From the NCBI RefSeq assembly GCF_000003605.2, contig NW_003125307.1, positions 1 to 64,000 on the forward strand: a DNA stretch of 64,000 nucleotides, read 5' to 3'. The position numbers and the translations under genes were made by a program. Source of the stretch: Saccoglossus kowalevskii. Taxonomy: Eukaryota; Hemichordata; Enteropneusta; Harrimaniidae. The notes beneath the pieces are model-generated. The model searched no databases. It saw nothing but the letters and a program-made list of their open reading frames with translations, and was not told the DNA's origin. Each line of letters starts with the position of its first letter. Position 1 is the first letter of the stretch. This document shows positions 56,694 through 60,476 of the stretch, one piece after another.

Positions 56694-57639
56694 GCCAGTT
56701 GAAAGCAGCACATAGATGTTCATGTGAGCTGAGTGTAAAATGTTAGAAAACAGCGTGCAAAGTTGGAAAAAACGAAGGAAATGTTGGCACAGTTGCTTGT
56801 ATATTTAACCTAAGTCATTAACATGGCAACCCCGCAGTTAAATTTCAAAATACTAAGTAAATGTTCCGAGAATGTCTTATATATAAGCAGATTATCACAA
56901 CAGTCAACCGAAAAATTGACAACAAACTGCTTACAAAGTTGTGAAAAGCGATTGCAAAGTTAGTAGTTTCAATCGGAATTGTTACCTGTGATATCATATT
57001 AACAAGTCCCACGATTAAAAGTTCGGAAATGTGAATAAATATTACGCCAATTGATGTTAAATTACCGTAGTGTTACTCCATGTATTCAGAGGTCATAGGT
57101 CAATTCTAGAAGGTACTGGAGCAGGCCATATCGATTGAAAACACCCAAAAACATAAAATAGCCGCTAATTCGGCTTAATTTCATATATAAACCATGTAGC
57201 TGTGTTGTTAGGTGACCGATAAATGTTTAATGTAAAGCTCAATCGGGCGTGGTTAGTCGTTGCATGCGAGACTCCCTGCGTAAACAAGGTGTTGCATTCA
57301 TTTTTTTTTTCATCACAACCATTAAGAAAATATATAAGACAACGTTCCAACATTTTTTGGTACTGTGATGTAAATCATTTATAGTGAAAAATCGTGTCAT
57401 TTTTGTAACTTTCTAAACTAATGGAACATTTTCAAATTCCTTCTAATCTTCAAGAACGAGTTGCTGATGCTGTTGGCACGTAGTCGGTTTTAAGCTATTA
57501 GCACACCGTGCAAAGGTGTTCAAAGTGATTGCAAAGTTGTGCAAAGTCGTTCCAAAGCTGCTAGATGTATTTGTATATATGACCTAAGTTGTTGGCATAT
57601 AGAATCGCGCAGTTGTAAAGTCAAAAAAATTTAATAAAA
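56694..57639 (+). repeat. Satellite unit 61 (946 bp)
   Basis: CACAACCATT, GGAACATTTTC, AGAATCGCGC as in unit 42. Private GCATGCGAG in the second hairpin. Confidence 0.95.
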
Positions 57640-57821
57640 GCCAGTTGAAAGCAGCACATAGATGTTCATGTGAGCTGAGTGTAAAATGTTAGAAAACAGC
57701 GTGCAAAGTTGGAAAAAACGAAGGAAATGTTGGCACAGTTGCTTGTATATTTAACCTAAGTCATTAACATGGCAACCCCGCAGTTAAATTTCAAAATACT
57801 AAGTAAATGTTCCGAGAATGT

Positions 57822-57833
57822 CTTATATATAAG
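57822..57833. promoter_or_regulatory. Palindromic TATA-like element CTTATATATAAG (reference copy)
   Basis: A perfect 12-base palindrome that contains TATATAAG, a TATA-box match, on both strands. Nearly all units keep it; unit 25 has CTTATTTATAAG. In an AT-rich satellite this may be chance. A promoter role is not shown. Confidence 0.35.
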
Positions 57834-57879
57834 CAGATTATCACAACAGTCAACCGAAAAATTGACAACAAACTGCTTA

Positions 57880-57905
57880 CAAAGTTGTGAAAAGCGATTG
57901 CAAAG
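57880..57905 (+). repeat. Three-step CAAAG/AAAAG cluster (reference copy)
   Basis: CAAAG at 57880, AAAAG at 57890 and CAAAG at 57901, again steps of 10 and 11 bases. Its text CAAAGTTGTG is repeated exactly in the five-step cluster, so the two clusters look related by an old internal duplication. Another CAAAG followed by a six-base A-tract lies at 57704. Confidence 0.75.
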
Positions 57906-57935
57906 TTAGTAGTTTCAATCGGAATTGTTACCTGT

Positions 57936-57941
57936 GATATC
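57936..57941. other. GATATC site, once per unit (reference copy)
   Basis: EcoRV recognition sequence, present in nearly every unit and lost in unit 60. It predicts a ladder of about 945 bases in digests of genomic DNA. Confidence 0.8.
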
Positions 57942-57979
57942 ATATTAACAAGTCCCACGATTAAAAGTTCGGAAATGTG

Positions 57980-57985
57980 AATAAA
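57980..57985 (+). terminator. AATAAA, polyadenylation-like signal (reference copy)
   Basis: AATAAA in GTGAATAAATATTACG, conserved in most units. No downstream GT-rich element is clear, so use as a poly(A) signal is only possible. Confidence 0.2.
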
Positions 57986-58035
57986 TATTACGCCAATTGA
58001 TGTTAAATTACCGTAGTGTTACTCCATGTATTCAG

Positions 58036-58048
58036 AGGTCATAGGTCA
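58036..58048 (+). promoter_or_regulatory. Perfect DR1 direct repeat AGGTCA-T-AGGTCA (reference copy)
   Basis: Two identical AGGTCA half-sites separated by one base form the textbook DR1 site bound in animals by nuclear receptors such as RXR heterodimers and HNF4. Reading all 68 units, both half-sites are intact every time. The only change seen in these 13 bases is T to G in the spacer, in units 58, 59 and 68. The sequence match is certain; binding or function is inference, and a 7-base local duplication could also have produced it by chance. Confidence 0.6.
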
Positions 58049-58050
58049 AT

Positions 58051-58056
58051 TCTAGA
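58051..58056. other. TCTAGA within TTCTAGAA (reference copy)
   Basis: XbaI-type site two bases after the DR1. With its flanks it reads TTCTAGAA, a tail-to-tail pair of heat-shock-element pentamers, but neighbouring pentamers are only partial. It is changed in units 47, 48 and 64. Confidence 0.4.
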
Positions 58057-58061
58057 AGGTA

Positions 58062-58067
58062 CTCGAG
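58062..58067. other. CTCGAG/CTGGAG dimorphic site (reference copy)
   Basis: About half the units have CTCGAG (XhoI-type) and the rest CTGGAG; unit 67 has CTTGAG. The two forms occur in runs and blocks along the array, so the site marks subfamilies. Confidence 0.8.
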
Positions 58068-58105
58068 CAGGCCATATCGATTGAAAACACCCAAAAACAT
58101 AAAAT

Positions 58106-58121
58106 AGCCGCTAATTCGGCT
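58106..58121. other. Small hairpin AGCCG-CTAATT-CGGCT, variation hotspot (reference copy)
   Basis: Five paired bases around a six-base loop. The 3' arm is the most variable spot of the unit: CGGCTT, CGGAGT, CGTCTTT, CAACTT, CGGATT, CGGCTTT and CGACTTT all occur, and the 5' arm varies as AGCCG, AGTCG and AGACG. Most variants destroy the pairing, so a conserved structure is unlikely. Confidence 0.5.
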
Positions 58122-58207
58122 TAATTTTAAATATAAACCATGTAGCTGTGTTGTTAGGTGACCGATAAATGTTTAATGTAAAGCTCAATCGGGCGTGGTT
58201 AGTCGTT

Positions 58208-58225
58208 GCATGGGAGACTCCCTGC
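58208..58225. other. Small hairpin GCA-t-GGGA-gac-TCCC-TGC (reference copy)
   Basis: Seven paired bases with one bulged T and a three-base loop. Several units alter it (GCCTGGGAG in 1, 54 and 55; GGGAGTCTCC in 38, 40 and 53; a 7-base loss in 25), so any structural role is weakly supported. Confidence 0.4.
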
Positions 58226-58246
58226 GTAAACAAGGTGTTGCATTCA

Positions 58247-58256
58247 TTTTTTTTTT
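58247..58256 (+). repeat. Length-variable T run (reference copy, 10 T)
   Basis: A mononucleotide run, mostly about 8 to 11 T between units and interrupted by G in units 2, 3 and 16. Its length sets which minus-strand frame is open across it. Confidence 0.85.
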
Positions 58257-58276
58257 CATCACAAACATTAAGAAAA

Positions 58277-58284
58277 TATATAAG
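58277..58284 (+). promoter_or_regulatory. Second TATATAAG element (reference copy)
   Basis: TATA-box-like TATATAAG just after the T run, followed by ACAACGTTCC. Conserved in most units. Possible start region for satellite transcripts, weak evidence only. Confidence 0.3.
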
Positions 58285-58456
58285 ACAACGTTCCAGCATT
58301 TTTTGGTACTGTGATGTAAATCATTTATGGTGAAAAATCGTGTCATTTTTGTAACTTTCTAAACTAATGGAAAATTTTCAAATTCCTTCTAATCTTCAAA
58401 AACGAGTTGCTGATGCTGTCGGCACGTAGTCGGTTTTAAGCTATTAGCACACCGTG

Positions 58457-58503
58457 CAAAGGTGTTCAAAGTGATTGCAAAGTTGTGCAAAGTCGTTCCA
58501 AAG
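58457..58503 (+). repeat. Five-step CAAAG cluster, 10.5-bp phased (reference copy)
   Basis: CAAAG begins at 58457, 58467, 58478, 58488 and 58499, so the steps are 10, 11, 10 and 11 bases. This averages 10.5, the helical repeat of B-DNA. It can also be read as just over two copies of a 21-base unit. The cluster sits about 90 bases before the unit end and recurs in nearly every unit; units 1, 5, 13, 15 and 63 have altered members or spacing. What it does is unknown: phased short A-tracts can bend DNA, and WWCAAAG resembles the TCF/LEF core. Confidence 0.85.
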
Positions 58504-58578
58504 CTGCTAGATGTATTTGTATATATGACCTAAGTTGTTGGCATATAGAATCGCGCAGTTGTAAAGTCAAAAAAATTT

Positions 58579-58584
58579 AATAAA
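58579..58584 (+). terminator. AATAAA at the unit end (reference copy)
   Basis: AATAAA followed directly by AGCC, after an A/T run of variable composition. Conserved in most units. It may be only a product of the A-rich run. Confidence 0.2.
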
Positions 58585-58585
58585 A

Positions 58586-59530
58586 GCCAGTTGAAAGCAG
58601 CACATAGATGTTCATGTGAGCTGAGTGTAAAATGTTAGAAAACAGCGTGCAAAGTTGGAAAAAACGAAGGAAATGTTGGCACAGTTGCTTGTATATTTAA
58701 CCTAAGTCATTAACATGGCAACCCCGCAGTTAAATTTCAAAATACTAAGTAAATGTTCCGAGAATGTCTTATATATAAGCAGATTATCACAACAGTCAAC
58801 TGAAAAATTGACAACAAACTGCTTACAAAGTTGTGAAAAGCGATTGCAAAGTTAGTAGTTTCAATCGGAATTGTTACCTGTGATATCATATTAACAAGTC
58901 CCACGATTAAAAGTTCGGAAATGTGAATAAATATTACGCCAATTGATGTTAAATTACCGTAGTGTTACTCCATGTATTCAGAGGTCATAGGTCAATTCTA
59001 GAAGGTACTCGAGCAGGCCATATCGATTGAAAACACCCACAAACACAAAATAGCCGCTAATTCGGCTTAATTTCAAATATAAACCATGTAGCTGTGTTGT
59101 TAGGTGACCGATAAATGTTTAATGTAAAGCTCAATCGGGCGTGGTTAGTCGTTGCATGGGAGACTCCCTGCATAAACAAGGTGTTGCATTCATTTTTTTT
59201 TCATCACAAACATTAAGAAAATATATAAGACAACGTTCCAACATTTTTTGGTACTGTGATGTAAATCATTTATAGTGAAAAATCGTGTCATTTTTGTAAC
59301 TTTCTAAACTAATGGAAAATTTTCAAATTCCTTCTAATCTTCAAGAACGAGTTGCTGATGCTGTTGGCACGTAGTCTGTTTTAAGCTATTAGCACACCGT
59401 GTAAAGGTGTTCAAAGTGAATGCAAAGTTGTGCAAAGTCGTTCCAAAGCTGCTAGATGTATTTGTATATATGACCTAAGTTGTTGGCATATAGAAACGCG
59501 CAGTTGTAAAGTCAAAAATATTTAATAAAA
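58586..59530 (+). repeat. Satellite unit 63 (945 bp)
   Basis: ACAAACACAAAAT, GTCAACTGAAAA and an AAAAATATTTAAT end. Matches unit 47 for the first and last. Confidence 0.95.
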
Positions 59531-60476
59531 GCCAGTTGAAAGCAGCACATAGATGTTCATGTGAGCTGAGTGTAAAATGTTAGAAAACAGCGTGCAAAGT
59601 TGGAAAAAATGAAGGAAATGTTGGCACAGTTGCTTGTATATTTAACCTAAGTCATTAACATGGCAGCCCCGCAGTTAAATTTCAAAATACTAAGTAAATG
59701 TTCCGAGAATGTCTTATATATAAGCAGATTATCACAACAGTCAACTGAAAAGTTGACAACAAACTGCTTACAAAGTTGTGAAAAGCGATTGCAAAGTTAG
59801 TAGTTTCAATCGGAATTGTTACCTGTGATATCATATTAACACGTCCCATGATTAAAAGTTTGGAAATGTGAATAAATATTACGCCAATTGATGTAAAATT
59901 ACCGTAGTGTTACTCCATGTATTCAGAGGTCATAGGTCAATTGTAAAAGGTACTCGAGCAGGCCATATCGATTGAAAACACCCAAAAACATAAAATAGCC
60001 GCTAATTCGGCTTAATTTCAAATATAAACCATGTAGCTGTGTTGTTAGGTGACCGATAAATGTTTAATGTAAAGCTCAATCGGGCGTGGTTAGTCGTTGC
60101 ATGGGAGACTCCCTGCGTAAACAAGGTGTTGCATTCATTTTTTTTTTCATCACAGACATTACGAAAATATATAAGACAACGTTCCAACATTTTTTGGTAC
60201 TGTGATGTAAATCATTTATAGTGAAAAATCGTGTCATTTTTGTAACTTTCTAAACTAATGGAAAATTTTCAAATTCCTTCTAATCTTCAAGAACGAGTTG
60301 CTGATGCTGTTGGCACGTAGTCGGTTTTAAGCTATTAGCACACCGTGCAAAGGTGTTCAAAGTGATTGCAAAGTTGTGCAAAGTCGTTCCAAAGCTGCTA
60401 GATGTATTTGTATATATGACCTAAGTTGTTGGCATATAGAAACGCGCAGTTGCAAAGTCAAAAATATTTAATAAAA
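59531..60476 (+). repeat. Satellite unit 64 (946 bp)
   Basis: AAAAAATGAAGG, GTCAACTG, CAATTGTA and CATTACGAAAAT as in unit 48. Private AACACGTCCC. Confidence 0.95.

Follow-up and report, generated by a model that had tools for sequence, protein, structure and literature searches.

Satellite DNAs evolve fast, and which of their short segments are held in place by proteins or nucleosomes is an open question. In CENP-B box satellites, a short conserved box of 17 bp lies inside an otherwise diverging monomer of ~170 bp; in phased A-tract curved DNA, with its periodic clusters of An/Tn, short A-runs follow one another ~10–11 bp apart. A satellite derived from 5S rDNA is reportedly carried by the B chromosome of Plantago lagopus. 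The nearest described kind that we found is PcP190 of hyloid frogs, a tandem satellite with units of ~190 bp that include a 120-bp 5S-like region ~70% similar to 5S rDNA (PMC11675491). Some PcP190 segments are conserved and others (the hypervariable region) are variable, and the satellite is thought to derive from 5S rDNA and is transcribed in different tissues (PMC11675491). The 5S arrays of Tribolium freemani contain 5S genes joined with satellite DNA (PMC11202950).

Here we analyse a satellite array in which a cluster of CAAAG words had drawn attention through its helical spacing. We show that the cluster belongs to an ancestral box whose A-runs follow one another at about one helical turn and which is present once per ~172-bp sub-repeat in a composite, 5S rRNA-derived satellite. 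The structural account (a composite satellite with paralogous boxes, a 5S relic and several unit types) is well supported; for the function of the box we offer a tentative proposal. In its origin this satellite seems to resemble PcP190, and both are tandem satellites with a 5S-like part; unlike those of PcP190, the units here measure ~726–945 bp and combine the 5S relic with many other parts, three sub-repeats bearing phased A-runs among them. Identity with PcP190 is excluded by unit lengths of 945, 883 and ~726 bp against ~190 bp. The likeness to the Plantago lagopus satellite lies in the reported 5S rDNA origin. CENP-B box satellites share with this one a short conserved box and a ~170-bp repeat, but no CENP-B box occurs here (no match within three mismatches of the consensus across the window). 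The spacing is similar to that of phased A-tract curved DNA (general context, PMC7537859), whereas the A-runs of the first cluster are just 3 bases long and their predicted bend is ordinary. Within the literature searched, six words from these units were printed in no paper, and no paper was recognised as describing the unit. The array adds a satellite type that joins a 5S relic to nucleosome-sized sub-repeats, and because one genome holds at least three diverged unit types built on one plan, the slowly changing boxes can be identified and put to a direct test.

A composite satellite unit

The window, which is the whole 64,000-base stretch analysed, comprises bases 1–64000 (+ strand) of a 101,759-bp contig in an assembly of 572 Mb and 4830 contigs. 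It is filled by one head-to-tail array of ~945-bp units, 67 complete and 2 partial, in a single orientation. The complete units are 935–948 bp long (945 or 946 bp in 50 of the 67) and share a mean pairwise identity of 98.1%. The array continues past the window to about base 101,528 of the contig, ~101.5 kb in all, where it breaks inside a unit at position 161; the DNA beyond this right end is unlike the unit. Such a long, head-to-tail, near-identical and non-coding array is satellite DNA in the usual sense, and further repeated matches lie on other contigs. Across the whole array, adjacent units differ by a mean of 16.6 bases and more distant units by ~19–23, a sign of weak local homogenisation. 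From the 98% identity and the slightly greater similarity of neighbours we infer tandem amplification and homogenisation, which would have made the box described below common to the window's copies.

The unit is composite, consisting of three diverged ~172-bp sub-repeats and a degenerate full-length 5S rRNA relic that is followed by a T-run (Table 1). Self-alignment gave ~60% identity among the sub-repeats, with z of 4.0 to 6.6 (60 shuffles each), and a three-way alignment places their starts near unit positions 486, 659 and 833, counted from the first base of the reference unit.

Table 1. Features of the reference unit, in coordinates of the window
Feature	Position	Strand	Description
Reference unit	57946..58891	+	Unit base 1 = 57946
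Degenerate 5S rRNA-derived segment	58138..58246	+	Rfam RF00001, model positions 1-120, 16.6 bits
T-run	58247..58256	+	Immediately follows the 5S relic; resembles a Pol III terminator
Sub-repeat A	58432..58604 (~173 bp, ends approximate)	+	Register of the three-way alignment
A box	58457..58503 (unit 511-557)	+	Five CAAAG, steps 10, 11, 10, 11
Sub-repeat B	58605..58778 (~174 bp, ends approximate)	+	Register of the three-way alignment
B box	58630..58673	+	Five A-runs of 3-6 bases, centres 9.5-11.5 bp apart; single CAAAG (58650)
Sub-repeat C	58779..58983 (crosses the unit boundary, ends approximate)	+	Register of the three-way alignment
C box	58803..58851	+	Five A-runs, centres 9.5-12 bp apart; same unit place as the 57880-57905 cluster

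The relic gives the unit a segment homologous to the 5S rRNA gene, as in 5S rDNA-derived satellites, with an Rfam match that stays below threshold: its score compares with a gathering score of 38 and has an E of 0.45 in a 221-base search, the best E of 11 matches. Rfam returns no match of any family at the gathering level across the window and none at E up to 1 in 2 kb. The 5S identity is drawn from alignments and from recurrence in relatives, the Rfam match appearing when the short slice alone is searched. Aligned with human 5S, the relic matches bases 23–121 with a score of 69.5 against a shuffle mean of ~30 (z 9.9–10.3), a score equalled in 0 of 300 and 0 of 500 shuffles; against other 5S sequences it scores 60 (Drosophila), 52 (Arabidopsis) and 44.5 (C. 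elegans). With C. elegans excepted, the scores favour animal over plant 5S, as a hint only.

Two other identities for this segment were considered and rejected. A functional 5S rRNA gene is excluded by the 16.6 of 38 bits and the lack of any gathering-level match in the window. 5S-headed SINEs are interspersed, with a 5S head running into a body and a 3′ tail; the copies here are tandem, with the T-run directly behind the 5S part, which excludes a SINE of this kind. No tRNA was found in 57000–60000.

Related satellites in the same genome

Contig C4454 holds a diverged version of the three sub-repeats, and a genome search with it, in which 40 first-look candidates out of 2257 were scored, returned at least 42 matches spread over 11 contigs; one place from each of 10 of these 11 contigs was used as a relative. 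Two further unit types emerged, one with an 883-bp period (contig C1044, one pair of copies) and one with ~726-bp spacing (contig C3418). Both carry the sub-repeats and the 5S relic in the same order as the 945-bp unit, so that at least three unit types (945, 883 and ~726 bp) have diverged within one genome while keeping their layout. Against human 5S, the relics in C1044 and C3418 reach z of 6.4 and 7.3, and a run of 7 T stands behind the C1044 relic as well. In C3418, Rfam finds 5S positions 70–106 on the matching strand and at the equivalent position (15.5 bits, E 2.9), one of five matches with chance-level scores. By sequence comparison the 5S relic is an old part of the satellite group, since it keeps its place and order in the C1044 and C3418 units.

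The CAAAG cluster is one of three paralogous boxes

The five CAAAG words of the A box were verified at their exact starts, 58457, 58467, 58478, 58488 and 58499. The original prediction placed this spacing in every unit; it is intact in 60 of the 67 complete units, but in the remaining seven a motif is lost or a step changed (three lack the first motif, two lack the third, one has a 9-bp step and one retains two motifs only). The spacing recurs from unit to unit because the copies are homologous, and the 67 copies are one observation with an effective sample of one unit. Chance was accordingly assessed on a single consensus unit with dinucleotide shuffles. A chain of at least three CAAAG appeared in 0 of 5000 shuffles, which bears out the claim that the helical spacing exceeds chance; when the count was opened to all pentamers and to steps of 8 to 30, a chain of 5 arose in 0 of 500 shuffles and a chain of 4 in 3 of 500. 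The window has 534 CAAAG on its + strand and none on its − strand. TRF reports the cluster as a 21-bp repeat with 76–80% matches (59 rows). Prokaryote genome contigs and viral contigs alike contained no exact match to a 25-mer of the cluster.

A second cluster at 57880–57905 had been said to repeat the 10, 11 step. It does so for AAAG, but CAAAG itself is found just twice, at 57880 and 57901 and thus 21 bases apart, with GAAAAG as the middle member. The two clusters are paralogous boxes, and the second does not count as an independent recurrence; a more decayed third, the B box, lies between them. Read from the consensus unit, the A-runs of the A box start at unit 512, 522, 533, 543 and 554; those of the B box occupy 684–686, 693–696, 705–707, 713–718 and 725–727, and those of the C box 857–861, 870–872, 881–883, 890–893 and 902–904. 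Among the A, B and C paralogues, A-tract columns are kept in 13 of 15 cases against 22 of 53 other A-majority columns (23 of 52 under another alignment setting). Over unit 505–945 the AAA signal in the 10–11 bp band lies above that of all 300 shuffles, and over the whole unit 10 of 300 shuffles are as high; the signal is common to the paralogous boxes through descent.

A-runs persist while the CAAAG word changes

For comparison between relatives, 11 aligned sequences (the window consensus and the 10 relatives) were collapsed by eye to five lineages: the window, C4454, C4150, a C3418-like group of six and a C1044-like group of two. Among fully aligned cases, phased AAA triples are invariant across the five lineages in 7 of 9 instances, compared with 6 of 26 other AAA triples (Fisher p = 0.006); the corresponding figures are 25 of 29 for tract columns and 76 of 119 for other A-majority columns (p = 0.015). 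When C4454 is the sole comparison, phased tracts are kept in 12 of 15 cases against 13 of 20 other AAA triples, the 12 of 15 including one alignment artefact (the first tract of A, with a falsely placed gap). What persists is the A-runs, not the word CAAAG, which is not conserved: relatives carry CAAAC, TAAAC, GAAAA and others in its place, and the first CAAAG of the cluster is CAAAG in 0 of the 8 relatives covering the site.

Conservation is unevenly spread over the boxes. Across the three unit types, the two clusters, taken together and with their boundaries as first noted, have 53 of 72 aligned columns invariant against 350 of 640 others (p = 0.0013), a joint signal that comes mainly from the second cluster (22 of 26 columns, p = 0.002); the first alone has 31 of 46 (p = 0.08). 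The B box shows no conservation above background in the same comparison (22 of 42 columns, p = 0.77), and all three boxes together reach 89 of 137 (p = 0.017). The picture was the same in an earlier count that took wider boxes and less background. Of the 49-bp windows of the sub-repeats, the most conserved lie at unit 858–917, on the C box; the percentile ranks are 67th for the A box and 23rd for the B box. Phasing is not significantly better among conserved AAA runs than among AAA runs as a whole (P = 0.29), nor does the share of in-phase near pairs differ significantly (0.80 versus 0.65, P = 0.11).

In the A-box consensus, all five CAAAG columns are perfect, with 25 positions intact, and the spacers vary (P = 0.018 under uniform decay). 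Between copies of the array, the CAAAG bases of the cluster are no more protected than the spacers (variable in 6 of 25 versus 4 of 22). The 40 CAAAG bases of the unit have a mean variability of 0.4% against 1.1% at context-matched sites (P = 0.02), which is lower because common variants are absent; in the count of variable sites there is no difference (9 versus 12.4 expected, P = 0.16).

Bend and nucleosome scores at the first cluster and the boxes

Phased A-containing motifs had been noted as able to bend DNA or to position a nucleosome, which the scores at the first cluster do not support. In a single wedge model, the bend at the first cluster falls at the 48th–65th percentile of the unit for arcs of 42–84 bp and at the 12th for 126 bp. 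Taking the three boxes in three families, 9 of 9 values exceed the unit median at arc 84 (56th–98th percentile), and at arc 126 the boxes span the 20th–96th percentile with 3 of 9 below the median (20th, 45th and 48th); at neither arc are the values independent of one another. WW/SS rotational scores are ordinary at the first cluster, as are the WW/SS signals at the A and C boxes. The AAA amplitude over 52 bp is raised at the first cluster (P = 0.03), as expected from the cluster itself.

Constraint or descent

The reading of the cluster as a functional element thus draws support from spacing beyond chance and from the joint conservation of the two clusters, but not from the bend, the WW/SS scores, the phase of conserved AAA runs or protection within the array. 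With less than even confidence, we favour a weakly constrained box for DNA shape or protein recognition, made up of the A-runs of the A and C boxes. Weak constraint on the shape of one face of the DNA would hold these A-runs in place; the box may be a recognition site for a satellite-binding protein, or it may set the rotational and translational position of a nucleosome on each sub-repeat. This functional step, protein recognition or nucleosome setting, we infer from sequence. Almost as likely is that the spacing is a functionless relic: a short 10/11-bp (21-bp) tandem duplication in an ancestral sub-repeat would have spread with larger duplications, and unequal exchange would have homogenised it. 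The 21-bp repeat found by TRF fits such an origin, the paralogy of the boxes explains recurrence by descent, and the equal polymorphism of CAAAG and spacers within the array, the non-significant phase test for conserved AAA, the ordinary bend of the cluster and the unconserved B box all agree with it. It accounts less readily for spacers that have decayed around 25 of 25 intact consensus CAAAG positions, for tract triples conserved between lineages beyond other AAA triples, and for a second cluster conserved above background. The favoured constraint on the A-runs draws on these observations and also on the rejection of chance spacing, the tract columns kept among the paralogues, the most conserved windows on the C box and the arc-84 bend values. 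Against it stand the phase test, the unconserved B box and weakly conserved A box, the comparison with C4454 alone, the variability of CAAAG within the array, the ordinary bend and WW/SS scores of the first cluster, the arc-126 values below the median and the lack of the first CAAAG in relatives.

The remaining explanations give the weight to other properties of the unit. The 5S segment might be its active part, with Pol III transcription, present or past, from the internal control region spreading the satellite or keeping it in heterochromatin through RNA, and with the CAAAG box as a passenger in the spacer. In all three unit types the relic does sit at a matching position; across these types, invariant columns number 37 of 54 in the part that corresponds to the 5S internal control region, compared with 366 of 658 elsewhere (p = 0.04). 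T-runs stand behind the relic in the 945-bp and C1044 units, and a 5S-derived satellite is transcribed in frogs (PMC11675491). This account is nonetheless unlikely, given a segment far below the Rfam gathering score that is also, within the array, the most variable of the six regions compared (share of variable columns 0.41, against 0.21–0.28 elsewhere). A combination of the two ideas, which we regard as improbable, would make the unit a two-part module in which the A-run boxes are read by a dedicated, CENP-B-like satellite-binding protein and the captured 5S promoter makes a local RNA, together keeping centromere or heterochromatin chromatin; if so, selection would account for the third box and the promoter stretch being among the slowest-changing parts across the three unit types. 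More improbable still is a specific array of five nucleosomes per unit (945 = 5 × 189 = 90 × 10.5) whose phase is fixed by the boxes: the unit-length arithmetic and the ~172-bp sub-repeats are all that speaks for it, the 883- and ~726-bp units break the arithmetic, and neither the A box nor the C box has an unusual WW/SS signal.

Other features of the array and its relatives

Several further observations concern the unit outside the boxes. Polymorphism has a hotspot at a short hairpin, AGCCG-CTAATT-CGGCT, at unit 163–183 (window 58108–58128), and the surrounding region, unit 155–190, has 22 haplotypes in 67 units; by eye, no compensating pairs were seen among the many variants of unit 161–176. 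The right end of the array, at unit position 161, falls just before this hotspot. A perfect direct repeat, AGGTCA-N-AGGTCA, which we take to be the nuclear-receptor half-site pair named DR1, lies at window 58036–58048 and is present in 68 of the 68 copies covering the site, with variation in the spacer base alone (G in 3 of 68); nearly the whole repeat falls inside a stretch absent from the C1044 and C3418 units. Over the whole array, rare-variant transitions run at 0.28 per site in CG, 0.23 in CHG and 0.13 in CHH contexts, small numbers that would be consistent with cytosine methylation, perhaps in CHG contexts as well.

On contig C4454, broken satellite pieces in both orientations lie at the end of the 331-kb contig (L012:1-1626), beside the diverged sub-repeat copy. 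For a peptide from this contig, the PDB offered nothing better than E 0.67. An inverted repeat with arms of ~45 bp was noted by eye at about L012:1698-1836, and the same contig (L012, L013, L029) carries protein-like minisatellites, long open frames of short repeated words.
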